Source: Platanthera guangdongensis
Taxonomy: Eukaryota; Streptophyta; Magnoliopsida; Asparagales; Orchidaceae
Length of the DNA: 64,000 nucleotides
Assembly (NCBI GenBank): GCA_039583875.1
Contig: CM077162.1
Location: 112,436,589-112,500,588, forward strand
Direction: 5' to 3'
Each line of letters begins with the position of its first letter. The stretch's first letter is position 1. A model generated the notes under the pieces. It was given only the letters and a program-made list of their open reading frames with translations, was not told where the DNA came from and searched no databases. A program made the position numbers and the translations under genes. Shown here one piece after another: positions 1,879 to 64,000 of this stretch.

Positions 1879-2235
1879 GCGCACGATCAGGGGATCTAAT
1901 GCGCACGACCACTGGTCGTGCGCCCCCAATCGTGCGCACTACTCTACGTTTTCTATAGAATCAGCCTGGGGTAAGCGCACGACCACTGGACTTACTGCGC
2001 ACGACCACTGGTCGTGCGCCACCGTTCGTGCGCATTACACCCCCTTTTTCATAACCCTGTCTTGGTAATTGCACGAGCACTGGCCATAGTGCGCACGACC
2101 ACTGGTCGTGCGCCACTGCTCGTGCGCGTTTATGCTGATGCTTCTTGTCCAGGTTGCAGGTTTATTTGGAAAAGCCGCACGATCATCGACCTACAGTGCG
2201 CACGACCACTGGTCGTGCGCCACTGAGCGTGCGCA
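1879..2235. repeat. Palindrome cluster in LTR U3 (about 96-bp period)
   Basis: Four identical 23-bp palindromes, arms GCGCACGACCA and TGGTCGTGCGC around a single C, at 1901-1923, 1997-2019, 2091-2113 and 2198-2220. Start-to-start spacing is 96, 94 and 107 bp. Partial copies (GCGCACGATC at 1879, GCGCACGACC near 1976, CGTGCGCAC several times) fill the gaps. The cluster ends about 20 bp before the TATA box. Confidence 0.95.
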
Positions 2236-2253
2236 CTACTTCTACTGTCTCCG

Positions 2254-2260
2254 TATAAAA
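2254..2260 (+). promoter_or_regulatory. LTR TATA box
   Basis: TATAAAA in CCGTATAAAAGG, just downstream of the palindrome cluster, at the usual U3/R position. Confidence 0.6.
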
Positions 2261-3118
2261 GGCCCTGCTCCGCGTTTTAGGTCAACGCCTGTCATTTGCT
2301 GCGATCGGAGAGTGCGCGGGAATCGCCTTTTCACATCTCCAGCTGCTCCATCACTTCCACCTTCGTCGGGAAGCCATTTCCACTTACTCTGAAGCTTTCC
2401 AACACTCCGGCGAAGCCCTCGGCCATTGATGACTTCAACTCCAAGCTTTCCTGCAGAGTTGGTGAAGTAGATAACCTAGAGAATGGACTTAAAGGCCTTC
2501 GAGGTGACAGATCGTTGGTACCGGAAGCCTCCTTGGACTGAGCCCGGAAGCGGATTGACAACTCGCTACTCCGACCACGACCAGCGGTGGATCTTCATTC
2601 TCTTTTGGTTTACTCCTCTTCCCCTTCCTCTGTGTTATGAATGTTTTGAGCAGTGTAATGAACATTTCCATCCCTGAATATCAAGTTTACTTTCTAGTTA
2701 ATGGAATGTTAGTTTCTTCTTTTGCTTGTGAGTTCTGTCTGTGAATGCGCCTCACTCACCCCACATCCACTTCATTCTTGTGCCTTGTCCGATTGCAATC
2801 CACACAAGAACGCTGCAATCCATTAGTTTCGCTTCCACTCGCCCAACTGAAGTTCGGCATAGAGGCCGACAAACCCACTTCACCTTGCGAAGCGGTGCCG
2901 TCGACCCGCATAGTTTTTACTAGTTCAGTAGATCAACCATCCACAATCTCCCGAGTCCGCTATTTCCTTTTTGTTCTATTTTTAACTCTTATAATAATAT
3001 TCTCGGTACTGTTGCCGTTCTACGCTAATTGCATTCCTCAAGAGACCGACACTTGGGGATTTACTCCCAAAACTTTATTACTTGTGCGACCGGTGCGCTT
3101 GCCATATTACACGCATCA

Positions 3119-4080
3119 GTACCACTACAAGCGGCTAAGCCGAGACGAGTGGAACAAGTAGTAGAGGAACCGTTGGTGCTAAGGAGGGCAACCGAGAGAC
3201 AGCTCAAGCATGTCATGAGCTTTATTCCTCCGGTATTCTCGGGGTTGGGAACCCCATCTCAAGCTGAAGATTGGCTCTCTAGGGTGAAGAGAGTCTTGAC
3301 AGCAACGGACGGAAGAATGGCAAATGACCACCATTGCTACGTTCCTTCTCGACGGTGAAGCGAGATTGTGGTGGGAAGGTTTGGAGCTGCATCTATTGAG
3401 AGGTAGGCTACATACATATGTCTCGATGGAGGAGTTCTCGAGACTATTCTTGGCTAGATGCCTCCCTTCAGCGCAGAGGATAGCGTTGGAGAACGAGTTC
3501 CTGAAGTTAATTCAAGGAGATAGTAGCGTGGATGAATATCTCCACGAGTTTACTCGATTGAGTCGATATGCTAGCTCCATCATCGCGGATGAGGAGCGCA
3601 AGATGAATCGATTCTACGAAGGGTTGAGAGATGATTTGATGCTACTACTCTCGGGGCCGATGACGCAGGGTTTCTTGACCTTGGTCAATACGGCCCGGTC
3701 CTTGGAGAAGGACATGAAGAATGTTCAGGCAAAGCAAAGTTTGGGTGACAAGAAGTTTGAATTCAAGGCGCCGACTACTTCAAATTCCGGCTATCGAAGG
3801 TCCTTTAAGAAGTCTAGGACATCGGGTCCAGCCCACTCTTCTGGTGCTTCTGGGGCGACTACGGGTCGGACCCCGGGTGCATGTTTTACTTGTGGGAAGC
3901 CGGGGCAGTTTGCCTGCGATTGCTGAAGCGAACGTCCCAAGTCCGAAAGGAAGCCGGGAGCGACTTATGAAGAGAAGGGCAAGGCGGTGGAGTCAACTGC
4001 ATCCCATTATGCTCCAGCCCAACCGAGGGTTTATAATCTTGGCCAATAGGAGGCCATCAAACAGGCGGATGTGGTGACAT
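3119..4080 (+). pseudogene. Gag pseudogene (Tekay-like copy 1)
   Basis: Capsid/nucleocapsid protein of the element. A retrotransposon gag domain is readable in two frames: an upstream part to about 3320, and from 3324 a frame with the typical LWW and EEFSRLFLARCLP-type stretch followed by a basic tail. A frameshift lies near 3320. The zinc knuckle at about 3880-3923 reads CFTCGKPGQFACDC, so the usual His is Gln. A stop follows at 3924-3926 (a Trp codon in copy 2), and another TAG at about 4047, where copy 2 has a Gln codon. The N-terminus is cut off by the preceding LTR. It ends at the donor-like site of a putative 76-nt intron. Confidence 0.8.
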
Positions 4081-4156
4081 GTACGCTTTAATTTATAGCA
4101 AGTTAATTTCTTTAAATACTTGTTATGCACATGTTACCTTACCACTGCTTGTTTAG
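4081..4156 (+). other. Putative intron between gag and protease (copy 1)
   Basis: 76 nt, GT...AG, T-rich before the acceptor (CTTGTTTAG). A counterpart of 78 nt sits at the same place in copy 2, where removal joins the two reading frames smoothly. In this copy the last exon base is T where copy 2 has G, so splicing here would create a stop. See 11289-11366 for the better case. Confidence 0.5.
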
Positions 4157-7598: not shown

Positions 7599-9699
7599 TG
7601 TAACGCACCGAAACTCAAAAGAGTGACGGGTGATGAATCTGTACCAAATTTGGAATTTGGCAAGGGTACACGGCCTGGGATACAGGCGTGTCCCAGGGCG
7701 TGTCGGGGTAGTTCAAGATCTGGCAAAAAATGATCAGGCAGAAATCTGGGTTCGACGATCGTCGATCAGCGTTCGAAGATCTGGTCACAATGCTGCGGTC
7801 GACGATCGGGCCAGCTTTCTGTGTTCGATGATCGGGCCAGCTATCTTCGTTCGACGATCAGGCTGTGTGTTCATCGAACATATAGTTTTCTGGGTTCGAC
7901 GATCGGGCCGTGGGTTCGACGATCGGGCCGCGCGTTCGACGATTTAGCCAGAGAACTTGGTTCGACGATTTGGCAGCGGTCGACGATTTTGGTTCGACGG
8001 TAGTCGAGCGCGGGGCTGATTGCGGAGTGTTGACGCTGGGGTTTTGGCGGGAGTTGACTAAATGTCCTGACACAATTTATTGGCCGCGGACGTGTCTTTC
8101 TCCGGATTGGTGAACCATGCGGTGTTTAATCCCATTTGTGCAGGTCAGACCTAGATCGTGCCCGTGCATCCCTTTTAGTGGGATTCGACGGCTGTGGTTA
8201 TTCCCGAAAGGGTTATACCCGAGAGAAGGGTTTCAAAACCCTTATTATTTTCTGCTGGGTCTCTATCTAAATCCTAGAGAGATGGGAGAGCAAAGGAGGA
8301 AGAAGAAGCCTAGATCCAGTCTTTGGAGGAGTTTTAGAACTCCAAATCGTGAGCCGACTTCAGATCCACAAAGGCAAGGAGTTTGTGGTGCTTTACATCC
8401 GCGTACATTTTCATGGTGCCAAGGAAGAACGCTAGGGTAACGATTCTCTTCTTGAGCATGTGAATCTCTCCTTCTTTTACATAGGAAGCCCGCTCTCGCG
8501 AGTTTGCGGGGAGTTTGAGGCATTCCTTCGGGTAGACATGAATAGTCCCCGTTGTGTAGAGTACGTAATCGAGAACGGACATAGGCATGATGTGTGAAGC
8601 CTATCCGGACATATTGGTCTGGATCGGTGATGTTGCATTGCATAAATGCCGGAGAAGACTCTGTGCGAATGTTTGTTTTTCGGGTTTTCTACGTGGTAGA
8701 TTGCAACAGGGAGCCTTGGGGATTAACCCTAAGGTGCACCCGGAAAACTAGGCGGATGCGAGATCTTGCCAACTTGGTGGCCTGGGAGCCAACTTGAACA
8801 TAACCGGGTTATGTGAAGTATGTGATGGAAATGGGACTCGGGAGAAGTTTGACCCGCGTATATGGCTTAAATTTTCGTTGCGATGTGAGCACGGGTTAGA
8901 CGGAACCGTACCCGTTCTATGTCGTTCGGTTAGAGCCGTTGGCATAGATGAGGGTCTTCGGCGTTCTATGGCTTAAATTGACGTAACCCATGCCAAGAAG
9001 ACAAAATGCTCATAGTTTGGCCGTAAAAATGATGGTGGTGGGATCAGAATGTCTATGGCTTAGATTGACGTGACATTCACCGGTTCACCGAGAATGTGCC
9101 CTGAGTGCACGGGGTGTGTGGCCGTGCGTGCCAATGCCTGTGATGCAATGTATATTTATATACTGCCTGGTTATGCTAATAAGTGCAGGGAAGGAGCATC
9201 GCATCCCCAAATTGGGGGCGGGATCATTATAATTTTGGTCAGCATTGCTGACCGTTGCTTTTGTTTGCCACCGTGTAGTGGTTTGTTGCTTGCAGATGCT
9301 GTTGGACCAAGCAGTCAATAGAGGGCTAAAGCCCAAATTGCGAAGCCGGCCCTCGAAGGCGTAATTGGAGTGTTTACTTGCTTTTATTCATGTATAACCG
9401 GCCTGTATGTCGTGGTATGGAAAACATGTAATATTGAGTAAATCATTTGTAAGGCCTTAAGGCCTGTACTTGTGTATGTACTTCATTCCTTGTTGGCTAT
9501 TTTAGTGGACATTCATGCTCGTGCTAGGTTCTTTTAATTGCAACTTATAAAACTGCTTCCTCTAGAATGCTCTGTGTAGGACGTTATGATTGGTTGGATG
9601 GTTTCCATTGAGTAACCACTCGGTCTATCTGTGGTATATGACGTCGGGCCCCGGCCGGACCTACTGCTATATGTTATGCGACGGACAGGGGGTGTTACA
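7599..9699 (+). mobile_element. 3' LTR of Tekay-like copy 1 (2101 bp)
   Basis: Starts TGTAACGCACCG after the polypurine tract and ends ...GGGGGTGTTACA, so the ends are the short inverted repeat TGTAAC/GTTACA. It can be followed alongside the copy 2 LTR in several blocks (for example TGTGTGAAGCCTA...CCGGACAT near 8590 and near 17009; GTGCACGGGGTGT near 9105 and 17490). U3 holds the TCGACGATCGGGCC cluster at 7749-8012. No clear coding content. Confidence 0.85.
7749..8012. repeat. Palindrome-type repeat cluster TCGACGATCGGGCC in U3
   Basis: About ten copies or variants of GTTCGACGATCGGGCC and its relatives, both as direct and inverted words, with the nested palindromes CGATCG and TCGA. A related LTR (copy 2) has only one such word left (TTCGACGATCATGCC at 15130) and a different motif in the same place. 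Confidence 0.9.
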
Positions 9700-9881
9700 T
9701 ATTCAGTTTGGGTTCTTTCTACTTTTAAAAGCTTCCGCTAGAATGCTCTGTGTTAGGATGAGTAGTCTTAATTAGATAGTTTGGATATTCTTATGTAACC
9801 CGTCCGACTGTCCGTGGTATATGGCGTTGGGTTCCAGCTGGACCTTCTGTTATATGCCATGTGACGGAAGGGGGTGTTACA
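9700..9881 (+). mobile_element. Remnant 5' LTR end of Tekay-like copy 2
   Basis: 182 bp matching the end of the copy 2 3' LTR (17858-18038) closely, with CTTCCGCTAGAATGCTCTGT and TTCCAGCTGGACCTTCTG shared. It begins immediately after the end of the copy 1 3' LTR, so the upstream part of this LTR has been displaced or lost. Ends GGGGGTGTTACA. Confidence 0.85.
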
Positions 9882-9940
9882 ATTTGGCATCAAAGCGAGG
9901 TTTCGATCCTCGGACCTGTTACAATTTGGTATCAGAGTTC
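9882..9940 (+). promoter_or_regulatory. Primer-binding site, apparently duplicated
   Basis: TTTGGCATCAAAGCG follows the LTR end, and a second GTTACAATTTGGTATCAGAG lies at 9918-9937. TGGTATCAGAG is the usual site for initiator tRNA-Met in plant LTR elements; the first copy is a decayed version. The LTR terminus GTTACA is repeated with it, so the unit LTR end + site is present twice 42 bp apart. Confidence 0.7.
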
Positions 9941-14764: not shown

Positions 14765-14830
14765 TGTAATGCCCCGAAAGTTGTATTTGAGTTGGTCGCA
14801 TAAAAAGGAATTTTGGTGCCTATATAGGGG

Positions 14831-15117
14831 TACACGGCCTAGGACACGGGCGTGTCCAAGGCCGTGTCTGGCTGGTGTAATGGCCGTTTTTGTCCCGAGA
14901 AGGACACGGCAAGGAACACGGCTTAATGACACGGGCATGTCATTTGACACGGGCTTGTCATTTGACACGGGCGTGTGCCTACCCATGTCAGTACCCGTGT
15001 TCAGCAGGGTCGTGTCAGGTTGCGTGGTGGTTATATGTGACACGCCCCCGGACACAGGAGTGTCGAGGAATCTGACACGGGCGTGTCGAGTGGGACATGG
15101 GCGTGTCTGAGCCTATG
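14831..15117. repeat. Palindrome cluster GACACGGGCGTGTC in U3
   Basis: At least ten copies or variants of ACACGGGCGTGT / GACACGGGC / ACACGGCC within 290 bp, including four in a row at 14930-14980 (TGACACGGGCGTGTG and TTTGACACGGGCTTGTC types). It occupies the U3 position where copy 1 has TCGACGATCGGGCC repeats. Confidence 0.92.
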
Positions 15118-15161
15118 TGAGTCTTTCTGTTCGACGATCATGCCTGGATCGAGGCACACGG

Positions 15162-15813: not shown

Positions 15814-15814
15814 A

Positions 15815-16282: not shown

Positions 16283-16283
16283 T

Positions 16284-20480: not shown

Positions 20481-20716
20481 GTGGGGGAGCACCCATCGGC
20501 GAGACGAGCCCTCCTGGTCATCTCGCGGGTGTCTTTTGCTCTGGGACCCTCTCGCCACTAAGAGCCTACTCACGTCTCAAAAGTGGGCGTCTCGCCCACT
20601 GTAGAGACCACCCGTCTCGCCCCCTGTGAGTGGACCACCTGGTCCCACTCGCCAATCAGCACCTCTCGCCAACTATTTCTATTCGCACCTTGACGGCCTC
20701 TCGCGAGCCCGAGGTT
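20481..20716. repeat. CTCGC/GCGAG repeat cluster in U3
   Basis: About a dozen TCTCGCC, GGCGAGA and CTCGCGAG words in 235 bp in both orientations. It sits in U3 upstream of the TATA box, the same place as the palindrome clusters in other LTRs. Confidence 0.8.
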
Positions 20717-20721
20717 GTACA

Positions 20722-22299
20722 TTGCTGAACTAAAAAGAGCTTCAACTAACTTTTCCTGCCTTCTGGCTAACTCTGCTGGACTTGGCTTTCAAGCTTATTG
20801 AAGAAGATGAAGTCCAGCTGCCTCTATTTTTAATATTTCCCTTCTGTATTCTGCATTTGTTCTCCGAATATTTTTCGTGTGTTTTTCGTCACCCTAAGCA
20901 TGCTTGTTGGTGCAGATGAAGATGACACCAGCAATCTTGTTGTTGAAGATGTTGATCTTAACATCTAACTTGATATGCCCTTGAATTGCTTGTCTTGGGC
21001 TCTCTGTTCTTCAGCCACACCACTAGCAATGTCAATTAGGAAGAAATATTATTACTGTTAACTCTTTTTGTAAAGATCATTTTCTTTTATTTATTGTAAC
21101 CCAATAGCTCTTTTAGCAATGGGTCCCACAACATTAATGATGGCTGCATCTTTGCTTTAACTCCTAACTGCCGTACTGTAGGCATGTGACACATTTTGTG
21201 GTGTACTATGCCTTTGCCGCTAACAATTTGAATATGGTTGACTTTTTGACTTGCTTACATCAACGCCTAAAGACTTGGTCAAAGTTCAAACATCAGAAGA
21301 ATAGGGGTTCAGTGAAAGACCTTCACTCAACGCCAAAGTACTTAGACATTTCTATCTATCTAGGCGGTGACAGCGTTGAGTGAGTAAAGTTCACTAAATG
21401 CTTTTTGCCTTAACCACATTCTGCATTTTAGGCGTTGAGAGTATTGAGTGAACATTCCTCGCTCAACGCTATCTGCCTTAGCCATTTTTGCTTCTTCAGC
21501 AGCATAAGCGTTGAGAGTGTTTAGTGAGAATGCCTCACTCAAATCTTTATGCTTTAACTAATTCTGTATAAAGACGTTGAGAGCATTGATAGTGTTGAGA
21601 GAGTTGAGTGAGCACGCCTCACTCAACGCTTTCTGCCTTAGCTATTTCTATTTCAGAAATTTGTTTAAGTTCGAAGAACTCTGAACTCATTTCGATGAAT
21701 GAGTGAAAACTCAGTTCGACAAATTTAGAGTTCAGCTTGACGAACAAGTGAAAGTTTAGATTTACAAACTCAAGATTTAGTTCGACGAACTCTGAACTCA
21801 GTTTGACGAAATTGGACTTAGCCAAATTTCTAAGACTCTGAGCTTAGTGCAATGAACGACTAGCTCAGCTAGACGAACTCTGAACGCAGTTCGACGAATT
21901 TGGACTTAGCCACTTTTTAGCTCATTTGTTTTTAGGCCTATACTGTTATTTGCCTGACTCACAACCTTTTGTTGTATGGCATTGAGTGAGTTGAATTCAC
22001 TCAACGCCACTGGACTTAGCCACATTATAAGATTGCCAAATCATGACTTTGACTGAATAGCCTTTACACAGCACCATAAGTCATCTGGCGTTGAGTGAAT
22101 GATCCTCACTCAACGCATGTGGACTTGGACAAATTTTTTGTCATTCCACAACTTAGATAAGAACTTACCTGACTAAGACGCTCAGGCTATTTGTCCAATC
22201 ATTGCTACAAGGACATCCTGCAATCATTAAACTTGAACACAAGTTAGATCACCACATGTGTATGCATTGTTTGTTAGGCCTTCTTCAAATCCAGTACAC
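20722..22299. repeat. Diverged repeat X1 (copia-associated), no coding content
   Basis: Non-coding. From about 21121 it aligns block by block with X2 (from 26518): GGGTCCCACAACATTAAT versus GGGGCCCACATAATGA, then a shared stretch before the palindrome cluster, and a shared end (AAGGACATCCTGCAATCATTA versus AAGGAACATCCAGCACATGATTA). It is followed by a minus-strand Sirevirus-like LTR end. The part 20722-21120 has only short frames with no recognisable domain. Confidence 0.6.
21321..22115. repeat. Two palindrome types in X1: GCGTTGAGTGAG and TTCGACGAACTC
   Basis: 21321-21640 and 21975-22115 carry GCGTTGAGTGAGTAAG...CACTCAACGC hairpin words. 21660-21920 carries TTCGACGAACTCTGAACTC words close to those of the Sirevirus LTR at 27681. 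Both kinds are inverted pairs of 8-11 bp. Confidence 0.85.
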
Positions 22300-22985: not shown

Positions 22986-24300
22986 TGATTCTAAATCGAT
23001 AAGGCAAGTCTACCAATCGTTCTAGAGTATAGGAACAAGTGTCGTATTAGACTCGGGGCATAATGACTACTCTACTCAGGCAAATTAATATTATTTTATC
23101 AAATATAAAAATAGGTTAATTACAACCATAGAAAGAAAATGAAATAAAAGTTATAACTTGATCAATACGGACTTTGAAATAAAATAATATTTTCATGAAA
23201 GCAAACTTCTAAATTACTTACTTCGACCGTGGAGGTTCCCAAATTACAAAAGTGGCTCTCTCGATTATACGCTATCGACTAAACTTAGGTTGATCGATTA
23301 AGACCTCTCGGCCAATTGAAACCCTAAAGCTCGCTTTATGCGGTGAACACCGCTATTGGATTCGACTCCAATTCGGAATATTCATGTCATCCTGTCTCGA
23401 GGAGTGCATGAGAATCATTCTACCCTTGAGTGACCTAACCGTATCCACAACCTCTCGGTAAATCAATGATACGGATCTAATATCGAAAAGTGAATTAGAT
23501 GCAATTGAAATCAAAGGCAAATTAAAGCGAGAAATAAAGAGAGTTTCAAAAGGAAGTATTACATTCAAATATCATCATGATCAAGTGTTAATTGAAATTA
23601 GCTACTTGACATGATGTAAAAACAACATAAAAAGGAAGTCATGATAAAAAGTGCTTGAATTGAAATAACAAAGCAAAGCTAATCTATGAAATTGAAATTA
23701 CATAAAAGAAGTGCAAGAAAACCACTGAAATTGGCTAACAATGTACTCCAAATTTACTCCCAAGATACCTCCTCAGCTCCTGACTTGATCTGGAATTTAT
23801 AGGATTTTGCTAGAAACTCCCACCCCTCGGTCACGACCATGACTAGGGGGCATGTAAGGTGCAGAACCGTCCTCTTGAAAGACTAGGAACGTTGGGAGAA
23901 AACTGCCAAAATTCGCCATTCTGTGGGTCACGCCCCAAGGTCACGCCTATGACCTAGGGCATGTCTATACTGTTACTGAAAATGACGTGAAGGATGAATG
24001 GCAGGAGTTAATCTGGCATTGCTGAAGAGGTCACTCCCCTAGGTCATGCTCGTGACCTAGGGTGTAAGCTTGAAACTGCTGGATCAGAAATTGTCTTCAT
24101 AATGCGCGGCACGCCTGGATGTCACGCCTTCGAGTCACGCCCGTGACTATGAGGTCACGCCCATGTCCTGGGTGTATAACTTTAATCCGACGTGGAAATG
24201 AATTTTGGTGCACCTTTATGGGTCACGCCTATGGCCTGAAGGTCACACTCGTGACCGGGGTGTGTAAATTCTTATTTCTCCAGATGGCGAGGAAGAAGAT
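22986..24300 (-). mobile_element. Athila-like LTR, minus strand (solo or fragment)
   Basis: Plus-strand start TGATTCTAAATCGATAAGGC is the reverse of an Athila-type LTR end. Minus-strand words AATACGACACTTG, CCTATACTCTAGAACGAT and TTGCCTT correspond to AATACGACACTTGATTCTATAC...AACGATAAG...TTGCCTT at the end of the LTR at 51400-53119. Both have a TATA box after a GTCACG palindrome cluster. The right border is uncertain: beyond about 24285 the two LTRs no longer align. Confidence 0.7.
23816..24262. repeat. Palindrome cluster GGTCACGCCCGTGACC in U3
   Basis: At least six copies or variants: GGTCACGCCTATGACC near 23950, GGTCATGCTCGTGACC near 24043, GAGTCACGCCCGTGAC near 24130, GGTCACACTCGTGACC near 24241. 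Each is often followed by a GGGCATGT/GGGTGTGT word. Confidence 0.92.
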
Positions 24301-25140: not shown

Positions 25141-26345
25141 TGAGCGAGAAAAGGATGTAGTCCGCCGAGTCCACAAGAGGCCGTGCGGATGGGGGCTTGC
25201 TTCTAGAACTGGTCATGCTGATGGCGGACTAGGAGGAGTCTGCGCCTACTACTGGCAGACTGAGAGGGCTCCGCCCGAACTGAGCTGATCGAGCCAGCGC
25301 CAAGATTGTGCGGGCTGAGGGAATATCCGCCCACTGCTGGGAAGCAGGAGCTGGAAGCTAAGAGGAGGATTGCGAGGAGAATCCACAGAGTCCGCCGCTG
25401 CTAAACTGAGCGAGTGCATGCTAAGGGTGCGAGCTAAAGGATATCCACCAAGTCTGCAGAGTCTGCACGAGACTGCGCGGTCTGGGACTGTCTTGATGAG
25501 GTTATGCTGCCTACCGGACTGGGAGCAGTCCGCCACTACTGATCGAGCCCGTGCCAAGACTATGCGGGCTGATGAGATATCTTCCTGCTGCTGGGAGGCG
25601 GATGCTAGAGGCTGAGGGATGGCGGGCTGAATAGCGAATCCACTGAGCACGTAGAGTCTGCCGCTGCTGACATGCTGAGTACACCTATGCAGTTTAATGA
25701 GGTGGCTGGCTGCTGAAACTGCTGGGGTTCATCAATGTCGGCAGACTGGAAGGCTTGATTGCACTTCGAGTCTGCCCAACTCGCGATGAACTGAACGGCT
25801 ACTGATCTTTGCATGTAGCTGGAGAGCTGTAGCATACGCACTCCTCAGGCAGACTGAAGAAGCTGGCTGCCCATGCTGCTAGAGTCCGCCACTGTTGAAT
25901 GGAACTTGCCCCACCTGTTGGGTGATAAGGGATGGGCATCCTGCCGAAGTGATGAGATAGGCCGCGCGTGTTGGCGAGGTGGAAACTGGGGTAGCTGATT
26001 GGCGACCTGGGTGCAGGTCGCCAATATGGCTATGCGGCGAGCTGGAGGGTTGTCGACGCTGGTGAAGTTATGCGGCCTAGATGGATGCCGCTTGTCGTTA
26101 TGGCGGTCTGGGCTGATAGACATCTGAGTCCGTCAACATTGGACATCACCTGTCAGGAGCGGGCTAAGTAACGGCTAGTTGCCGGCTTAGATGGATAAAT
26201 ATCCGAGTCCGGCAAAGGGGCACCTGTTGAGTTAAGCTTGAGGTTTAACTGACAAGGGGCACGACCTGTAGGGGCGGACTAAAGAGGCAGTTCGCTGCCC
26301 CTGCCGACCAAGGAAATAGTTGCGGCCTGGGCGCTCAGACCGCTG
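25141..26345. repeat. GGCGGACT/AGTCCGCC cluster in U3
   Basis: More than fifteen variants of TCCGCC, GCGGACT, AGTCTGC and GGCAGACT in both orientations, for example GGCGGACTAGG near AGGAGTCTGCGCC (about 25223-25246) and GGCAGACTG near GGCTCCGCC (about 25254-25275), which can pair as hairpins. Confidence 0.8.
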
Positions 26346-26689
26346 AGACCGCCCAAGTTGTACAGCCTTTGAGGACAAAAAAGCATGTCTGCCTACCCTA
26401 AGATGTCGCGACCTCCAGGAGGATCCCGGAGCAGGCCTCGACTAGCAAGCTGGCTTCCTTGGGAAGGATCATCGATTTTGGGGTTAATACCGCCGCTCAA
26501 CGGCTCTTTGAGCCGCGGGGCCCACATAATGAGTTGGTCGTTGCACCCTTACATTAACTACAAAAGTCTTGTGGTAGGCCTGCAACACCATTTGTTGCAT
26601 ACAGTAGCCTTCCCCCAATATTTTGAATTTTGCTTATAATTTTTGACATCAGCACCTGTTGACTTAGTCCAATTCAAACACATTAGTAT

Positions 26690-27010
26690 AGACATTGAGT
26701 GAGTAGGCTTCACTAAATGCTAAAACACTTAGACAGATTTTGTCACTAGGTGTTGAGTGAGTAAGCTTCACTAAACGCCAAAGCACTTAGACAGATCTTC
26801 TGTCACTAGACGTTGAGTGAGTAAGCTTCACTCAACGCCAAAACACTTAGATAGATTTTCTATCACTAGGCATTGAGTGAGAAGCTTCACTCAACGCCAA
26901 AGCACTTAGATAGATTTTTTGTCACTAGGCGTTGAGTGAGTAAGCTTCACTCAATGACAAAATACTTAGACTGATTTTCTGTCACTAGGCGTTGAGTGAG
27001 CACCCCTCAC
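26690..27010. repeat. 60-bp tandem repeat built around a hairpin
   Basis: GTTGAGTGAG starts at 26752, 26812, 26872 (as ATTGAGTGAG), 26931 and 26991, a period of 59-60 bp. Each unit has GCGTTGAGTGAG, AGTAAGCTT, CACTCAACGC and then CACTTAGACAGATTTTCTG. Further single hairpins of the same type continue to 27431. Confidence 0.93.
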
Positions 27011-27549
27011 TCAATGCTTTTAGAATCTGTCAATTATATTGAAGTGGAGTTGAGTGAGTAGATATCACTCAACGCTTTTGTCCTTAAGATAGTATCTCAG
27101 TTGATTAGGAGTTGATGTCTTTTGACAAAATTCTGTGTTTGAAACATCATGGCTCTGACTAAATTAGGGTCAGTCAACACTATGTCCTCATGGCTTTGAG
27201 TGAGTTTGCCTCACTCAACGCCTGTGGACTTAGTCAAATAACTACACAGATTTTCTATGGCTTTAAAAGGATGAGCTATACTCAACGAATAATCTGTATA
27301 TCATTGAGTGAGTAGACAACACTCAATTCCTGTGAATTTAGCCACATTTTCAGATTGCCAATAGCTTGGCTTTGACTATGCATGCAGTACTCACAGCTTT
27401 TAGTCATATGGCGTTGAGTGAGTAGACTTCACTCAATGCCTGTGGACTTAAATGATTTTTCGTCTTTCTACAATCTCTACCTTGTGATAATATGTCACCA
27501 TCACTTAGACAATCTGTCTAAACCTATTCCAAGGAACATCCAGCACATG

Positions 27550-27554
27550 ATTAG
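27550..27554. repeat. Left target-site copy of the Sirevirus-like element
   Basis: ATTAG, matching ATGAG at 47905-47909 in four of five bases. Confidence 0.6.
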
Positions 27555-37728: not shown

Positions 37729-38204
37729 TGTAAGACTCCCCCCTCCCTGATCCCAAAACACGGCATGAAGGGTGAGTCTTATGCCCGAAACAGCCGCCTT
37801 GCGAGTACCATAAGCACCTACTCTAGTACCTTAAGTCACGCCCCTGGGTCACGCCCGTGACCCAGGCCGTGTAACCCATTTTACTCTAGTATTTTGAAAA
37901 CTACTCGAGTAACCTTGGCAGCTACTCGAGTACCTTAGTCACGCCCCTGGGTCATGCCTGTGACCCAGGGCGTGTAACCCATTTTACTCGAGTATTTTGA
38001 AACTACTCGAGTAACCTCGGTAGCTACTCGAGTACTTCAGTCATGCCCCTGGGTCATGCCCGTGACCCAGGGCGTGTAACCTGCTCTGGACTAACTTCTC
38101 CAGTTCGCAAGTGCCGCCCTTTTTCCTCCACTTTCCTGAACTCAAGCCAGCCCTCCTGACTCAAAACTCGCATGGGGGGGCCTAGCGCGAATCGGGACGT
38201 TAAA
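37729..38204 (-). mobile_element. 5' LTR of the nested Tekay-like element (476 bp, internally deleted)
   Basis: Same ends as the 2946-bp partner, but about 2.47 kb is missing between CGCCTTGC (37796) and the GAGTACC...AAGCACCTACTC segment. The U3 palindromes are kept while TATA, R and most of U5 are lost, so this LTR can no longer act as a promoter. Confidence 0.85.
37805..38085. repeat. Palindrome cluster of the short LTR
   Basis: Same modules as 32450-32715: ACTCGAGT, GGGTCACGCCCGTGACCC and GGGCGTGTAACC, three times. Confidence 0.92.
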
Positions 38205-39120: not shown

Positions 39121-39198
39121 ATAATGATAAACCAACTCAATTAAAACCAAAGAATAAGAAAAAGAAACAAAATTACTAAAATCCTAACTACAACAATG

Positions 39199-39475
39199 TT
39201 CAGCAGATTTCGTCGAACTCCGATCGACGAAAGGTGTACAGTTCGTCGAACTGAAGTCGACGAACTCCGAACGCAGATTTCTATCATAATTATTCGTTGA
39301 ACTACGATCAATGAAACCAGTATGGTTCGTCTACCATAGATCGATGATTTTGGGGCCCAGAAAATGGATATTCTCATTCTCTGAGTGGAGTTCTACGAAC
39401 TCACCCCCATTCATCGAACTCAGGTCGACGAACTCACTTGAATTCGTCAAACGCAGTTCAGTATAACAGAAACTT
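39199..39475. repeat. Palindrome cluster inside the Sirevirus polyprotein region
   Basis: TTCGTCGAACTCCGATCGACG at 39207-39226, GTTCGTCGAACTGAAGTCG near 39240, ATCGAACTCAGGTCGACGAA near 39414, and others. These are the same words as in the LTR clusters (27681, 46491). They lie between the gag end and the protease in a stretch that is mostly open in the polyprotein frame. Confidence 0.9.
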
Positions 39476-40310
39476 TAATTCTTATAAAAACTATAATCAA
39501 CCAAGATCTTCTAATAATCAATTCAATCAATGGATCATACCACCTAGAAGATATCACCCTTTAGGATATAAATGACAACATGAATACTCTTACATTTCCA
39601 GTTTCAGTTATGTAAAGAAAGAAGGACCCAATGTAACCTTGGTCAAAAATAGCTAATCTGTTTTATTGTAGGTGAAAGACTATCCCACCACAGAGCAACA
39701 GTGGTACCTGGATAGTGGTTGCTCTAAACACATGATTGGAAATAACGACAACTTAATCAATTACAAGTCAAAGCTAGGAACAAAAGTAATATTTGATGAC
39801 TCCAATTGTGGCCAGACTAAAGGCTATGGAAAAGTCAAGATTGGTGGTGTCACCTTAAGGAAGGTTGCCTATGTAAGTAGACTGAAGCATAACCTTATCT
39901 CCATAAGTCAGTTATGTGAAGAAAGATTTCAGGTATTATTTACTAAAACTTCCTGTATTATTACCTATTTAGATAACCATGTAGTTTTGACTAGCACTAG
40001 AATAGGAATTATCTATGTACTTAATTTTGAATCTGCCAAAAAAGAAACCTGCCAGTTTAATTCAACTAGCAACAATAATGACCTTTGGCATAGGATATTA
40101 GGTCATGTTAACTTGAAAAACATTGCCAAACTCTCTGGGGACAATCTTGTTAGAGGATTGCCTTCTTGCCCCTACAATATGAAAATCCTTTGCAAGGCTT
40201 ATCAATTAGGCAAGCAAACTAAAAGTATTTTTAAATCAGTAAATAAAAGTGACTCGCTTATAGTATTGTACATACTACATATGGACCTTTTTGGCCCTAT
40301 TGCAGTATAA
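39476..40310 (+). pseudogene. Sirevirus protease and integrase zinc finger, pseudogene
   Basis: Copia protease motif WYLDSGCSKHMIG near 39700, then the GAG-pre-integrase region (LWHRILGHVNLKNIAKL near 40086). The zinc finger has HHC but the last Cys is Tyr: CKAYQLGKQ near 40192. The first integrase motif HMDLFGPI lies near 40278, followed by a TAA at 40308-40310. Confidence 0.83.
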
Positions 40311-42840: not shown

Positions 42841-43092
42841 TGCGATCGAAGAAATTGCCTCAATTCGTCAAATGAAGATCGACGAACTGAGAAGAGTTCT
42901 AGAGAAATTCGTCGAACGGAGATCGATGAACTCTCTGTGTGTGAAGCTAATTTTGTCGACCGGAGATCGACGATATTGCTTCAGAAAATGTTCATCGAAC
43001 GGATATCGACGAAATGTTTTCACTTCTTCTGACTTAGATCGACGAATTCTTTTATCAATAAAATATTTCGTTAAACCCAGATCGAAGAATTT
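42841..43092. repeat. Palindrome cluster between RNase H and the 3' ORF
   Basis: Eight or more words such as TTCGTCGAACGGAGATCGAT, AGATCGACGAACTG and GATATCGACGAAATG in 250 bp, of the same type as in the LTRs. They begin within 10 bp of the RNase H stop codon. Confidence 0.9.
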
Positions 43093-46291: not shown

Positions 46292-47904
46292 TGTTGGATC
46301 CCTAGTTTGGATTTGGGCTAGGTTCACTAATTAGGATGTCTGACCCATAATGTATAGCCAGGGTCATGTGTTTTGAGACCTAGAGTCTAGGCTAAGTCAT
46401 TTATTTCAACCCTACATGGACCAGCCAGCAGATGACCTCAAATGACTCAAGACTTAGGGAAAATTAAGTTCAGTATATAAGTTTGATGTTCGTCGAACTC
46501 AGCTCAACGATCGTCGATCGCTGATCGACGAACTCAGACTTAATTCTCTAAGTTGAGCTTGACGTTATTCGAGCTCAAGTCGACAAAGTCTAGATTTCAA
46601 CTTCAACACATTCTTTCCAGAATATTTTTCTCTAAACTCAGCTCGACGAAGATAGATTATCAGCTCGACGAACTTGGAGCGCAGAATTACCAAGTTATTC
46701 ACAGAATGCAGTTTGCTGTTCTCAGGTCAACGAACTTGGATATCAGGTCGACAAACAAGTTTTCTCAGGTTGACAAATAGGATTTCTCAGCTCGACGAAC
46801 TTGGATTCATGTCGACGAAATCTGTTATGTGGTCGACGATTTCTGTTGCAGTTCCAGACTTAGAACTTTCCTTATTTTCTGTCCTTTATTCATATTATTT
46901 AGCAGTGATTTCCTGAAGTGATTAATGCTTATATTCTCTTAATATGTCCGTTACTGGAAGCATTAATTATGGTTTTCATCAGGTTAATTACTTGCTTAAT
47001 TAATTGTGACAATTGGGGGAACTCATCAATGCAAATATTCTCCATCCGATTTTCATTCTCCAGGCAGTCAACATTCAATAAAGACAATTCAAAATTCAAA
47101 GGAGAATTTCGACAGAGAATATAAAAGAGATTTCTCTTATTTCAATCTTCAGCAAGACAGTAACAAGGAAGAAGATAATAGAACCAGAGAACATACAAAA
47201 AATCTCTCAGACATTCTCTGTCCAGAAAACACTTTGTTTTCACCTTGATTTTTCTGCAGAAGGAGAAGAACAACAAAAACAAAATCATGAGTCTTCTTTA
47301 ACTTCAACTACAGGAGCTTTCCAGAAAAACAATCACTATCAGTCAGAAGTTCCTGGGTTACTACAAGTCAAGGCTGAACACCTACTACACCATGTGCAAG
47401 GCTTCATGTGATTTCTGGAGAAGCCTTGACAACAACAATCCACTTGTCTTCTCAGTTGTTTGAGAAAGAGAAGACAACATCAATCTCTCTTCCCCCTCCT
47501 GTATAAAGGGTTTATTAACTCCCTTCAAATGTTTATTTTGGTTTTTGGGCACCTAATCAAAAGCTCAAAGGTGGTTGTAACCTGATCAAAACCTGCTAGT
47601 GGATTCCTACCAGGGTGGTAGAAGAGTGGATATACCCAGGTTGGGGAACCACTATAAATTATTTTGTTGTCTGGTGGCCCCTTTTCTTGTTGTTCTTGGT
47701 GTGGCTGTGATAGGCTAGTAGTGCTGTGATATATTTCTATGTTGTGTTAGATTAGGTCATCTTAGACAAGTTTAACATATTGTTAATATTGGTATCAATT
47801 ATTCATTACTCTGATATAAAAATCTTAAACAACCAAAAAGTTTTAGATACTCTATTCACCCCCCCCCCCCCTCTAGAGTAATCAGATCTAACCCCTATCT
47901 TTCA
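46292..47904 (+). mobile_element. 3' LTR of the Sirevirus-like element (1613 bp)
   Basis: TGTTGGATCCCTAG...CTATCTTTCA. Carries 66 bp (46345-46410) absent from the 5' LTR, and a C-run of about 13 where the other has about 30. Confidence 0.88.
46491..46852. repeat. Palindrome cluster TTCGTCGAACTC / CTCGACGAAC (3' LTR)
   Basis: GTTCGTCGAACTCAG at 46489, CGATCGTCGATCGCTGATCG at 46509, ATCGACGAACTC near 46524, CTCGACGAAGATAG, CTCGACGAACTTGG and GTCGACGATTTC. The CGATCG core is better preserved here than in the 5' LTR. Confidence 0.92.
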
Positions 47905-50683: not shown

Positions 50684-51106
50684 TGTTGGTATAAGGTTAT
50701 TTGATAAATCTTATTTTATCTTATTTTTGCTTGTTGAAGTTGGAGACCGGGCGGTCTGTCTTGGCGGGTTAGAGACCGCGCGGTCTGGCGGTTTGACTCG
50801 GCGGCTTGTAAACCGGGCGGTCTAAGCAATCTTCACAGGCGACCTCTCTGCATCTCTTATTGTAAGCCGTGCGGTTAGTGCTTCTGTCTAACCGCGCGGC
50901 CTGTGCGGTTTACTTTGTACAGTCCGCTTAGCTTGTAAATTTTAGTCCCACATCTCTTATTTGTATTCTCTCTTCTCTCCTCCATTCTATATAAGGGAGG
51001 GCATACCTTTGTAATAGTTATCTTTTTTGGATAATAAAATTTCGATTATTCAAAAGTTTATTCGGCTTGTTCTCTTCTTTTCGCTTCCTTTCTCTACTTT
51101 CTAACA
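50684..51106 (+). mobile_element. Copia-type LTR (423 bp)
   Basis: TGTTGGTATAAGG...CTACTTTCTAACA, followed by a perfect initiator tRNA-Met primer-binding site. TATA box CTATATAAGGG near 50986. The U3 palindromes are at 50727-50930. No coding sequence follows. Confidence 0.75.
50727..50930. repeat. Palindrome cluster GACCGCGCGGTC in U3
   Basis: GAGACCGGGCGGTCTG, GAGACCGCGCGGTCTGG, AAACCGGGCGGTCT, AACCGCGCGGCCTG and related words, at least seven in 200 bp. Confidence 0.92.
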
Positions 51107-51399: not shown

Positions 51400-53119
51400 G
51401 TTTTTAGTTATTAATTTATCGAAATTTATTTATCTTTTTCTAATTTGAGTACTTAATTGTCTTTTTTTTAAAATTCCAGAAATTTCGGCTGCTAATATAA
51501 ATTTGGAGCTCACTAATGTAAACAGAGCAAAATTTTAAAGTTTTTTTGAGAAATCAAGTTTTACACGCACTAGTCATGGGAAAACCAGTGGCATGACCTC
51601 AGTCACTGACCGTGTCCCGCCTCAACTTCCAAAAATATATTTCCACATAAGATAAATATTAAATGCAAGGGTCGCAGGCATGACTTGGGGTGCGTGTATG
51701 CTATTCTGAATGAGTTGCAACATCAGTTTAAAGTTACACAACCCTGTCATGGGCGTGATAGAGAGGGCATGCCATCCAGATCCGAGGCGTGATCCAGAGT
51801 TATGAAAGTTAGTTTCTGCTATCGCCCATTTCACGTAGTCATGCATAGGTCACGGGCGTGACTCCGAAGCGTGAACTCTTTTGTAATTGCTGCCATCACT
51901 CGAGATCGAGCCATTTTCCCACCATTTTCAGAACCGTCCGCTACATGTATTGGTCATGGTCTTGACCAGTGGTGTGATCCTTAAAGAAATGACTCTTTGC
52001 GGTTTGGCTTCATAACATTTCTCGTGCTTTTATGTCATTGGTTCTATGCCATACATGCCCTAGGTCACGGGAGTGACCTAGGGGCGTGACTCCCATAACA
52101 TTTTCCTATAAATACCACTCTTCTCCTTGAGTTGAGGAGGGAGATTTTGGTGGAGAAATTATATAATTTGGCACTATATTTCCTTATTTTTCATTTCTAG
52201 TTTATAGTTTAGCTTAGTTAATGTTTTTTCCAAATTGTAATTTAGCTTTATAGTTTGGTATTTCAAGTTTTTTTCCTTTGTAGTAATCATGTTTTTCTCT
52301 ATCATTTTTTGTAATTTCCCCGTCATGATGAGTAGCTAAACTTCATGTAGCACTTGATGATGATAAAATTTGGAATGAAATGAACTTTGGTTTTTTTTGT
52401 TTAATCATATAGCAAGCTCTCTATTTTAATTTGCTTCGGGTTCTCTTTCATTATAATTTCTTTGAATTCAACTGTAGTAAGTTCGATCCTAGAACTATAT
52501 CCTAGATTTTACCGACAAGTTATGGATATGAGGAGATCACTTAAATGTATCGTTGCATAGTCTTCGGTCCAAGATCCATATCGTAGATTTTACCGACAGG
52601 TTGTGGATACGAGAAGAACCCTCAAAGACAAAACAAGTTTTCATGCAATCCTCAATAGTGGACATCCCATATTATTTGGATTGGGGTCAAACCAATTGTG
52701 GTGTTCACTACCTAAAGCAAGCTTAGAGAGTTTGAATAGCTGAAAGGTCTTAATTATGCCACCTAAGGTTAGATGTTACCGTATTCCCGAGATGGGCAAT
52801 GACATAATTTAGGAGCCTTCACGGTCGAAGGCAAATTATTAGAACTTGGACTTTAATCTTTTAATCAATGTTCATTTTATCCTAAGAGGATTCTAGATCA
52901 AGTTCTAATCTTTATCTCATCAAATTTCTCTCAATTAGTTTAAATCGCATTGTGTCTTTTATTTTTTAAAACTAACCACTACTTTGTTAATATAAAATAG
53001 TAGCTTTTCCTCGTGAGTAAAAGTACTCGACAAATCCAGAAAAATACGACACTTGATTCTATACTTTGTAACGATAAGTGCAATTGCCTTCCTAAAGCAT
53101 AATTAATCAGAACACATCA
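51400..53119 (+). mobile_element. Athila-like LTR (plus strand)
   Basis: Same family type as the minus LTR at 22986. U3 with a GTCACG palindrome cluster, TATA box CTATAAATACC at 52107-52117, then R-U5 with AATACGACACTTG...CTATACTTTG...GCAATTGCCTT. Ends near ...AACACATCA (53119). The left border is uncertain. It contains a pair of similar segments, CCTAGATTTTACCGACAAG at 52500 and CGTAGATTTTACCGACAGG at 52582. Confidence 0.65.
51562..52095. repeat. Palindrome cluster GGTCACGGGCGTGACC in U3
   Basis: TAGGTCACGGGCGTGACTCC near 51845, GGTCATGGTCTTGACC near 51952, AGGTCACGGGAGTGACCTAG near 52060, and more degraded copies at 51570-51800. Confidence 0.88.
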
Positions 53120-61125: not shown

Positions 61126-61226
61126 CTGGCAATTTTCGAAGGAATGTAGTTGAAAACTGTGCTGATATTAAAACAAAATGCAGTTACAATCATCAAAGAA
61201 ATGCAGTTGCATTAACTTACAGTTAC
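61126..61226 (-). other. Transposase intron 2
   Basis: 101 nt, GTAACTG...TTGCCAG on the minus strand, phase 0. Highly similar to intron 1. Confidence 0.75.
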
Positions 61227-61292
61227 CTCTTCTACAACAACATTACCGGAACCCTGACTACTTGTTGCTCCCACTTCAGACATTTTTGGGAC

Positions 61293-61719: not shown

Positions 61720-61815
61720 GGGAAAAACAGTAATTTCAGAAAGTAAAAAAAGTGGGCCCCGGCTATTTATTTCCGCAGCACTCCTTCCTGCATTACCCGC
61801 AGCGAAACATTTTCC
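61720..61815 (-). repeat. MULE terminal inverted repeat, right
   Basis: Reverse complement starts GGAAAATGTTTCGCTGCGGG and runs to TTACTGTTTTTCCC, matching the left repeat over 96 bp. Confidence 0.93.
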
Positions 61816-61824
61816 CTCATTGAC
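61816..61824. repeat. MULE target-site duplication, right (CTCATTGAC)
   Basis: Identical to 54355-54363. Confidence 0.95.
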
Positions 61825-62217
61825 ACCGAGGATCAAGAAAAAAAACTTTCACTTGACCATTTGAAACCATTGCCTTCAAGAGAATGTCTTTCATATGCTT
61901 CGGCCAATTTTCAGGGGTACTTGCTCTCTATATTTCATGGTATGGTAGGTGAGTGTATAGAGGTGTTCATAGATGATTTCACACTCTTCGATGCTGATTT
62001 TGATTCTTGTTTATTGAACCTCTCTATACTCAACCATTGTGAGGACACCAATCTAGTGCTGAATTGGGAAAAGTGGTACTTTATGGTATAGAATCGGATT
62101 GTTCTGGGGCATATAATCTCAAATAAAGGAATTGAAGTAGATCAAGCTAAGGTGGATAGAATCATGAAGATCCCTCCTCCAATATCTGTGTGGGAAATTC
62201 ACAGTTTTTTGGGGCAT
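61825..62217 (+). pseudogene. Athila-like RT, continuation after the MULE
   Basis: Continues the RT after ILID with TEDQEKKTFTCPF (about 61825-61862), then a region with frame changes in which FIDDFTLFDADFD (catalytic region, about 61969-62005) is readable, and ends at FLGH (62217), where an LTR begins. Confidence 0.75.
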
Positions 62218-62553
62218 TGATGATTCCGATTTATATAGGGTTTTTCAGGCTCATCTGAGCTTATTATCTTGCATGTGCATTACTATTTCAGAAGGAAATG
62301 CCATATATTTGATTAGGGCTTCACTTAGCCATTGTGCACTGTTTCGTCCCATCTTGGTTTGCGAATTGCATCGGGATGTCGGGGGTAAGTACTGGGGTAC
62401 TCCCCATGCGGATTTGTTTATTTTTTATTGAATATTGATGCTGGGAGCTGTTGCTCCAGCTTTGGTTTTTGTTGTGTACATGGTCAGTTTTCCCCAAATA
62501 CAAGAAGTCTGACTTGTGGAAAACGCACGGTCGTGCGTTTCCTTAACGTACAC
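62218..62553 (+). mobile_element. Athila/Tat-type LTR, U3 fragment (plus strand)
   Basis: Starts TGATGATTCCG like the LTR at 1595 and is cut at 62553 by an LTR of the same family in opposite orientation. It contains CGCACGGTCGTGCG at 62524-62537. Its first part is repeated in inverted form at the end of the window (62378-62412 versus 63968-64000). Confidence 0.7.
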
Positions 62554-64000
62554 TGATGGAATCTCGGTAAGTGCACCGATTTTTATCATGTAATAAACTA
62601 GGAGAGTTATCTTCTGAGTATCGAATCTCTCGAGCAGTGTAGATTGTGAGTGTGATCTTCCACGTCTGAAAGTGAATGCAAACACAACATAGTTTGGGTT
62701 TGTTTTAGAATAACTAAAAGATATTATGCGGGTCGCCTTCACCGCTTCGCTTGGTGGAATACTCCGATTAGTATTACGGCGTGCGGTCTTAACAGTTAAG
62801 GGTCAAAAACACCTCTTCGCCAAGCTAGCCCCTAACACTCGTTAGTGCGGCGTAACACCAAGAAATCAACACAAAGCAAGCAAAGAAAGGAAAGCTAAGC
62901 TATGAACCACAACAACATTTACCATAATAACACAACATGAGCATTGTTCATAGTCCTAGTAAGTTTAGCAAACATCCTAAGCTTAGAAACAGAGTCTAAA
63001 TTAGAGTAAGAAGGATATTTACAACCCAAAACATGAAGGCTATCCACGATTCTCGGCCGGAGTCGAAGGTTGTCAGTATTCGTCCGGGCTCGGTCGATGG
63101 TTGACGTTCGAGGAAGCTTGAAGTGTTGTCACCGACTTCAAAGGCCTTTTCCCCATCTTCTTTATGTTCCGTGAAGGCTGGAAGTCCCCGTAAAACTCTT
63201 CAATGGTGGTGATAAAGAGCTCCAAATGCTCCTCTTGAGATGGAGAAGCGGAAAGAAATGGAAGATCTTCGTTCACTGTGAAGTTTGGAGGAAGAATAGT
63301 GGTCGGATGAGCTTTTCAAGGAGGAGAGAGGAAAAAGTGGCTGGGGTATTATTTCACGCTCAGAGGAGCAGAAATGGCGGAGTGATTTTGTCTCCAGTCA
63401 ACTCCTGAACTTAAATAGAAACAGGTCAGAAAAATGGTCACGCACGGTTTGGCACACGACCGTGCGTTAACCGTGTGATATTAACTTCCCGGCCAAGATT
63501 GCGAATGAAGATGTGTTGACCCGTGTGTTTTACTCTCGCACGGGCGCTTCTGCCCGTGCGCGAAGGAAAATGAACCGGTAACCACAAAGGGCTGAAATTC
63601 ACGACAAGGAGGTAGAACCGTGCGTTTTACTCGCGCACGGGCATTTCTACCCGTGTGTGAATAAGTCGCACAATTAAGCACAGAGCGTTAAAAAACCAGA
63701 ATGCATCAGGTAAACCGTGCGTCTCCTTCGTGCACGGTTCCGAAGAAACCAAGCGTGAAGAAATCACACGGGTTGGTCAGTCCATCCAGAGAAAACCTTT
63801 AGAAATCGCAGGATTCGGTTGAAATCGTGCGCTAAGGAATCGCACGACCATGCATTTTCCACAAGTCAGAATTCCAGAATTGAAGGAAAACTGACCACCT
63901 GCACAGCAAAACCAAAGCTTGAGCAAAAGCTCCCAGCACAAAATATACAGCAAAGGATATCCAAAGCTGCATGGGGAGTACCCTAGTACATACCCCCGAC
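62554..64000 (-). mobile_element. Athila/Tat-type LTR, minus strand (runs off the window)
   Basis: Plus-strand start TGATGGAATCTCGG is the reverse of an LTR end (...CCGAGATTCCATCA). On the minus strand: GTGCGATT/CGTGCG palindromes in U3 (63860-63430), TCTATTTAAG TATA-like box near 63410, then R-U5 with GCGAAGCGGTGAAGG...GACCCGCATA near 62745, as in the LTR at 1595. The U3 start lies beyond 64000. Confidence 0.7.
63430..63860. repeat. Palindrome cluster CGCACGG / CCGTGCG in U3
   Basis: CGCACGGTTTGG and CACGACCGTGCG near 63440-63460, CGCACGGGCGCTTCTGCCCG at 63536-63557, CGCGCACGGGCATTTCTACCCG near 63632, AACCGTGCGTCTC and GTGCACGG near 63712, TCGCACGACCATGC near 63840. Confidence 0.88.

Follow-up and report, generated by a model that had tools for sequence, protein, structure and literature searches.

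CG-containing dyad arrays in the long terminal repeats of Ty1 and Ty3 retrotransposons in an orchid genome

Cis-regulatory boxes of Tnt1-type plant retrotransposons may be repeated and are sometimes palindromic. The U3 region of the long terminal repeat (LTR) differs between subfamilies of these elements (PMC10794571, PMC2829016, PMC10760457). The closest described arrays are the palindromic RM boxes of Sireviruses, of which each element has 8-32. These boxes form CpG islands, occupy the LTR's upper half with the TATA box 37 bp downstream on average, and occur additionally upstream of ENV (PMC2829016). That paper compares Ty1/copia elements only and calls the boxes Sirevirus-specific, and 12 of its 13 motifs have a CGG-CCG core. 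In maize Sireviruses, palindromes with hairpin potential and high variability cluster in the cis region of the LTR (PMC10760457, PMC5311732). Other short motifs of mobile elements include the VANC targets of VANDAL DNA transposons, which are non-palindromic, lie in the same orientation, and are bound by an element-encoded protein (PMC5735166, PMC10398659), and the quadruplex-forming sequences, which in 21 species of plants are concentrated around the promoters of LTRs (PMC3902901). Here we describe arrays of CG-containing dyad words in a 64-kb stretch (contig CM077162.1, positions 112,436,589 to 112,500,588; hereafter the window) of the 4.25-Gb genome of the orchid Platanthera guangdongensis. 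The window contains nested LTR retrotransposons, among which domain matches identify the Ty3 elements B, C, and K and the Ty1 element H (Table 1).

The 13 coordinate ranges listed as palindrome clusters in the original prediction were each compared with 1500 Euler dinucleotide shuffles. The commonest CG-containing 6-mer, with strands merged, was in excess at all 13 loci (p 0.0007-0.0033), and inverted CG 8-mers were in excess at 10 of them (p<=0.01), which confirms that the clusters exist. Spaced dyads with arms of at least 6 and spacers of 0-10 were enriched at 5 of the 13 loci (p<=0.01). The density comparison that the prediction proposed thus came out in favor of CG words and against the CG-centered palindrome as the literal unit: perfect CG-centered palindromes of at least 8 bp reached p<=0.01 at only two loci, both of them LTRs of K, and p<=0.05 at four, and this candidate unit was ruled out. 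Over the whole window, block Markov shuffles gave an expectation of 36.9 +- 5.7 perfect palindromes of at least 8 bp (42 observed) and of 9.7 of at least 10 bp (21 observed, 13 of which are the TACTCGAGTA palindromes of K). For the most part, the units are dyads with a spacer, half-sites, and repeats in tandem; words are present on both strands and also as lone half-sites. When 71 control stretches of the window were put through a similar test with 500 shuffles, two reached p<=0.01 for the word count, one of which contains the D motif, and four did so for inverted CG 7-mers; of these four, two lie in an insert at 15.2-16.5 kb and a third lies in a cluster of the H motif. Among 319 scanned windows of 400 bp, those at p<=0.01 covered 11 of the 13 loci, with D (20481) and F (25141) absent.

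The commonest words differ from array to array: TCGACGAA in H, GCGCACGA in A, GGCGTGAC in E, CTCGAGTA in K, and ACACGGGC in C. Perfect TACTCGAGTA occurs in 8 and 5 copies in the two LTRs of the Ty3 element K, and the word TCGACGAA is found 5+6+5+4 times over the clusters of the Ty1 element H, with few full dyads. That the arrays are family-specific, as had been claimed, holds only in part, as several words and modules are common to separate families. The GTCACGGGCGTGAC modules occur in K and in E/E2, LTRs with no other detectable similarity to each other; the K-E2 similarity is confined to the modules (40 bp, 87.5%, E 1e-9). TCGACGA words are present in Ty3 elements (B and L2, the latter from an independent sample described below) and in Ty1 elements (H and L5), with matches of 23 bp at 91% between B and H and of 41 bp at 80% between L5 and H, and AGTCCG words are common to F and L10. 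Conversely, related LTRs can differ in their words. The 3' parts of the LTRs of B and C are related (435 bp, 75.6%), whereas their array words differ (TTCGACGATC versus GACACGGGCGTGTC) except for one module present in both (44 bp, 86%). Whole arrays also come and go among relatives, since L10 has an array and its relative L6 has none, and D has one that its relatives L7 and L9 lack. The related LTRs of L3 and of window locus J likewise include only one with an array.

A module of ~40 bp, found in K, E, E2, B, and C, consists of an inner dyad with outer half-sites on each flank. The inner dyad is CCCTRGGTCACG-GG-CGTGACCYAGGG in K and E and CCTAGGACACG-GG-CGTGTCCAAGG in C. For a candidate sense-strand bias of the GG center, GG and CC centers with two mismatches or fewer were counted at 2:0 in B, 8:1 in C, 7:0 in E, 4:0 in E2, 1:0 in F, 9:2 in K1, 6:2 in K2, 2:2 in I, and zero in the other six arrays, counts that rest on three or four independent families. 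The arms of the module covary. In an alignment (A2) of 16 hand-picked sequences, which comprised one from B and 15 of 29 candidates (1 of 9 from C, 5 of 5 from E, 4 of 7 from K1, 2 of 5 from K2, and 3 of 3 from E2) with the less symmetric ones omitted, 16 pairs were recognized; 78.1% of the cells were paired versus 67.0 in shuffles, 10 pairs were changed on both sides versus 5.9, and covariation was 0.281 versus 0.139, above 500 of 500 shuffles, a result that the hand-picking favors. A less biased test used every site (37) selected solely on its 10-bp core, with shuffling within families. Outer-arm complementarity was 172 versus 140.5 (p 0.0005), 99 versus 86.4 for the 22 sites left without K (p 0.019), and 56 versus 46.7 for the 11 sites of E and E2 alone (p 0.013), although kinship among copies limits all of these covariation tests. 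A covariance model of A2 gave 35 matches in the window up to E 1, all in B, C, E, E2, K1, and K2; the 17 matches with E<1e-5 were all on the sense strand, and 15 of them belonged to the model's own alignment. A bolder and less likely reading is that Ty1 and Ty3 elements share a small U3 vocabulary of CG dyads. The ~40-bp nested dyad would then be an interchangeable promoter module that its covarying arms maintain in four or more LTR groups, and the swapping of modules might change host control.

For 13 oriented LTR arrays, we measured the distance from the array end, as set by us, to the start of TATAWA. The arrays had been placed just upstream of TATA where one is visible; this stands for A, E, E2, F, J, and K1, where TATAWA begins no more than 60 bp past the array (6 of 13, versus 5.3% of random positions), but not for D (199 bp), H1 and H2 (259 bp each), C (443 bp), B (1136 bp), or I (1172 bp), and no TATAWA follows the array of the truncated K2. 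The observed/expected ratio of CpG was higher in the array than in the 600-bp flanks at 12 of the 13 loci, with values of 1.43 versus 0.08 in H2, 1.60 versus 0.19 in H1, 1.37 versus 0.62 in I, and 1.16 versus 0.77 in A, and a difference of a mere 0.03 in E; the exception was E2 (0.75 versus 0.76). Between the H1 and H2 LTRs, 16 of 60 array CpG positions differ (13 by transitions) versus 31 of 304 other positions, and the corresponding figures for the K pair are 6 of 42 versus 11 of 254. Array CpGs therefore decay after insertion as methylated sites would, the methylation itself being presumed, and their density must stem from selection or renewal in active copies.

An unrelated stretch of 200 kb (C1:30.0-30.2 Mb) with 10 structurally defined LTR pairs (L1-L10) served as an independent sample. 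Array windows, for which at least 5 copies and the shuffle floor of 0.0025 in both tests were required, N-holding windows being dropped, made up 26 of 143 LTR windows, 16 of 334 internal windows, and 14 of 235 windows outside elements; element windows overlap, and the outside windows may include solo LTRs. Both LTRs were positive in L2, L4, L5, and L10 and one in L8, and none in L1, L3, L6, L7, and L9. The claim of an array in nearly every LTR proved too strong, as 5 of the 10 pairs have none. In the Ty3 elements L2 and L4, oriented by the pol strand, the arrays span bp 128-1127 and 78-877, counted from where U3 begins, and the 513-bp LTR of the Ty1 element L5 carries TCGACGA words and dyads. 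Three of the 26 positive LTR windows, all in L2, carry AACCGA words shared with the internal part of that element and may represent a nested insert. Of the 16 internal array windows, 14 belong to one tandem repeat in L7 and L9. This repeat, of ~112-115 bp with CCGAGC words (L101-L102, L103-L104, L105), lies at 138006-140294, 158887-160659, and 172538-174191 of the 200 kb and occurs once just outside L8.

Single dyad forms are abundant genome-wide. The 23-bp dyad of A was found at 17,632 exact places (reversed control, 0), GAGTTCGTCGAACTC at 3,619 places (control, 4), and the degenerate 24-bp pattern CCYRGGTCACGGGCGTGACCYRGG at 6,591 (reversed control, 0). By eye, 82 of 100 listed places of CCYRGGTCACGGGCGTGACCYRGG were symmetric at both free pairs versus ~44 expected under independence, a count that is descriptive as the copies are related. 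Its first 30 places, all on contig C1 and many of them overlapping, could be sorted by flank into four groups: one of 20 places goes with E/E2, one of 4 with K, and one of 5 is linked to L2/L4 (and F), while the last is a single place. Outside the plant genome, the dyad pattern matched once in each of 50 IMG/VR contigs, and two reverse transcriptase searches confirmed no plant relative there. Seven loci with Ty3 relatives were found among GTDB contigs, six of which (L051-L056; L057 was left out) were scanned; these loci are evidently eukaryotic contamination of bacterial assemblies. The Ty3-type fragment L055 has a clear LTR array of CGCAA/TTGCG words immediately before a TATA-like site, the scan showed no array in L051 and L052, and L053, L054, and L056 gave weak, partly coding signals. 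The weak signal of L053 (3200-3600) consists of GCAAGCGTG/CACGCTTGC words past the pol gene of a Ty3 element, which we take to be possibly of fungal origin. In L051-L056 the one match to the A2 module model, at E 0.65, was not convincing, and Rfam at gathering thresholds found no RNA family in the window.

Table 1. LTRs and word arrays in the 64-kb window. The last four arrays are additional to those of the original prediction.
Feature	Coordinates	Strand	Description
LTR A	1595..3118	+	Ends TGATGA...GCATCA by eye; G-rich stretch immediately upstream
Array A	1879..2236	+	Four perfect 23-bp dyads GCGCACGACCA-c-TGGTCGTGCGC, 11-bp arms; lone half-sites as well; tandem unit of 96 bp; TATAAAA at 2254
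LTR B	7599..9700	+	3' LTR of Ty3 element; gag 3300-3926, pol open reading frames up to 7164
Array B	7664..8012	+	Single ~40-bp module at 7664-7708, then TTCGACGATC(GGGCC) units
Array C	14828..15117	+	3' LTR of second Ty3 element; module and GACACGGGCGTGTC units; LTR starts at 14765, interrupted by insert at ~15150-16500
Array D	20481..20716	-	GGCGAG/CTCGCC words in LTR preceding Retrotrans_gag match
Array E	23816..24270	-	GGTCACG..CGTGACC modules; TATAAAT ~3 bp past array on minus strand
Array F	25141..26345	-	AGTCCGC/GCGGACT words; TATAWA 42 bp past array on minus strand
Array H1	27681..28026	+	5' LTR (from ~27553) of Ty1 element; TTCGTCGAAC / TCGACGAA
Array K1	32255..32715	-	3' LTR (~29890-32834) of Ty3 element K, which lies on the minus strand within H; modules and TACTCGAGTA palindromes; tandem unit of 102 bp; TATATA at ~32252
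Array K2	37805..38085	-	Truncated 5' LTR of element K
Array H2	46491..46852	+	3' LTR (~46292-47905) of Ty1 element H; poly-C stretch near LTR end
Array J	50727..50930	+	AGACCG-GG-CGGTCT / AGACCGCGCGGTCT in short LTR-like stretch; TATATAAG downstream; primer-site-like word TGGTATCAGAG at ~51110
Array E2	51562..52095	+	Diverged GGTCACGGGCGTGACC modules; TATAAATA at 52107
Array I	63430..63860	-	CGCACGG/CCGTGCG words and dyad CGCACGGGC-n6-GCCCGTGCG
H-motif array inside H	39190..39570	+	Upstream of Pol_BBD match
H-motif array inside H	42844..43041	+	Between apparent pol end and further open reading frame
Additional array	21280..22140	.	CTCAACGC/GCGTTGAG and TTCGACGAA-like words
Additional array	26680..27480	.	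60-bp tandem, GGCGTTGAGTGA..TCACTCAACGCC

LTR boundaries in the window were set by eye. Pfam matches for Ty3-type gag, protease, reverse transcriptase, RNase H, and integrase were found in B, C, and K between them, and H was typed as Ty1 by its Pol_BBD, gag_pre-integrs, and RVT_2 matches and may be a Sirevirus. Its LTRs, the first of which spans ~27553-29103, are 88% alike. A, E, E2, F, I, and J are taken as LTRs or LTR-like stretches without lineage assignment. All 13 loci of the original list showed the CG-word excess, and four arrays had escaped it; in one of these, at 26680-27480, the CpG contrast is reversed (0.36 versus 0.50 in the flanks). B and C are 73% alike in gag-pol. The LTR of B stops at ~9700 and abuts a 182-bp remnant (within 9543-9882) whose sequence matches the terminal portion of LTR C at 94%; the C element therefore seems to retain only the final portion of its 5' LTR. 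The insert in LTR C (15162-16503) consists of tandem units of ~430-470 bp with strong inverted repeats, mostly non-CG. The motif of LTR D (GCGAGA) also occurs four times inside the element near gag, at 19632-19747. A 630-codon open frame of the FAR1/MULE type lies on the minus strand at 59291-61183, and its best named relatives, at 76% identity, come from another orchid, Platanthera zijinensis.

On balance, we lean toward reading the clusters as cis-regulatory U3 arrays of putative dimeric binding sites that are spread by duplication, kept in active lineages, and then left to decay. Each unit would be a dyad or half-dyad that a host DNA-binding dimer could recognize. Within a family, copies may be gained by tandem duplication and by template switching during reverse transcription, and arrays that raise transcription would be retained in active copies, which would preserve CG words in LTRs whose other CpGs are lost. 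Once inserted, copies are presumably methylated and then decay. Separate families might converge on the same few half-sites or trade modules by recombination, and related elements may replace one word by another. The arrays, their position, the sharing of words, the covariation, and the contrast and decay of CpG are observed, and protein binding, the promoter effect, methylation, and the route of spread are what we infer. The repeated amplification of regulatory-looking dyads that had been suggested fits the position of the arrays, their CpG retention, the turnover of motifs, and the spread over Ty1 and Ty3. Several observations weigh against a regulatory role of this kind. No TATAWA lies within 400 bp of the arrays of B, C, and I; the H-motif arrays also occur inside the element, away from the LTR promoter, and the 200-kb sample has array windows in internal parts and outside elements in addition to five LTR pairs without an array. 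Inverted 8-mers remained above p 0.01 at 51562 (E2, 0.13), 27681 (H1, 0.04), and 46491 (H2, 0.21). The array CpGs of H change at about the rate of the few remaining CpGs of that LTR (16 of 60 versus 3 of 10), no protection being visible, and the covarying arms of the module extend to 16 pairs, beyond the need of a simple dimer site.

Alternatively, U3 transcripts might fold into RNA hairpins that serve replication or feed small-RNA silencing, as has been proposed for maize Sireviruses, and the arrays would be kept, or matter, on that account, a possibility that we consider doubtful. Small RNAs fall on the LTR palindrome clusters of Sireviruses, and maize hairpins are concentrated in Copia LTRs (PMC10760457). 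In the window, sense-strand folding of the first 400 bases gave z<=-4 at 7 of 13 loci versus 2 of 71 controls, and the 16 pairs of the hand-picked A2 alignment covary. However, antisense folding is roughly equal in strength, E2 folds no better than shuffles (z -0.3), and low folding energy is not independent evidence because any dyad folds. Covariation is likewise no proof of RNA, as dyad selection at the DNA level leaves the identical signal. Dyad mismatches on the sense strand of 14 arrays comprised 3 G-T, 9 A-C, and 15 others; since G-T mismatches do not exceed A-C, no G-U tolerance is visible. Covarying arms would also be left by palindrome correction, and the arrays might then be functionless, a neutral by-product in non-coding U3 of duplication during reverse transcription and of palindrome-perfecting template switches. 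The 96-bp and 102-bp tandem units and the appearance and disappearance of arrays among related LTRs (L10 versus L6; D versus L7 and L9) agree with this account, which we nonetheless regard as improbable, for it predicts neither CG words nor the place near TATA nor the same words across unrelated families.

In a further alternative, the ~40-bp nested dyad would be a small parasitic or shuttling sequence, handed from one LTR family to another either through recombination or as a very small mobile element. Its best matches among K, E/E2, B/C, and L2/L4 reach 80-93% over 35-61 bp, K and E2 match nowhere beyond the modules, and the thousands of matches to the degenerate 24-bp form include four flank groups among the first 30 places. 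We judge this to be very unlikely: no target duplication, no ends of its own, and no sign of independent movement were seen, wherever the LTR part was recognizable the module was in U3, there are half-sites and forms in between, the words of other families are different, and convergence or common Ty3 descent (B, C, K, L2, and L4) is possible. Least probable, in our estimation, are anti-silencing sites recognized by an element-encoded protein in the manner of VANC targets. Element-specific arrays of short motifs in mostly non-coding parts, and the presence of the H motif inside its element as well, would suit such sites, but dyads, words on both strands, and the presence of some words in Ty1 and Ty3 alike would not, and the element open reading frames gave retroelement domains or nothing in a Pfam search (26 frames, E<=0.001) that was not aimed at such binders.

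The arrays extend a published feature of Ty1 Sireviruses to Ty3 elements, and in this genome single dyad forms have thousands of copies. Many families with few words and with word switching offer natural replicates for finding the host factor that would read LTR promoters, and the system also bears on the persistence of CpG-rich promoters in a CpG-poor genome. It carries the warning that annotation by LTR consensus can mask the fastest-changing regulatory part.

Although no description had been known to the original prediction, Bousios 2010 (PMC2829016) already covers the Ty1 Sireviruses, and the layout of H resembles theirs. One array of H (42844-43041) follows the apparent end of pol and precedes a further open reading frame, a putative ENV only, which is the place given there to boxes upstream of ENV, whereas the array upstream of the Pol_BBD region is additional to the Sirevirus layout. 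The G+C content of the H arrays is merely 0.39-0.42 despite CpG above that of the flanks. K has at least 8 palindromic boxes, as described for Sirevirus elements, and a single LTR of A holds four perfect 23-bp dyads. As in the cis region of maize Sireviruses, the palindromes cluster in LTRs, but here Ty3 elements, reported in maize to lack such structures, bear them; among the literature matches listed, in which subscription journals are thinly covered, there was no description of palindrome arrays in Ty3 LTRs, and matches to the sequences themselves were cloning oligonucleotides. Tnt1-type elements have two or three motifs in tandem (PMC2829016), in contrast to the many dyads and half-sites shared across superfamilies here. 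The arrays share with VANC targets the amplification, in non-coding regions of an element, of short motifs specific to the family, but they consist of dyads and of words on both strands, and like quadruplex-forming sequences they are a structural class of motif by LTR promoters, the latter being built of guanine runs rather than dyads. The arrays are thus of a known kind and depart from the Sirevirus boxes in the following respects: their presence in the Ty3 elements B, C, and K; their cores, which are mostly CACG-NN-CGTG, TCG-N-CGA, CTCGAG, and CGCACG instead of CGG-CCG, the F and L10 words (AGTCCG/GCGGAC) being nearest to the latter; the ~40-bp module common to several families; and the change of words between relatives.

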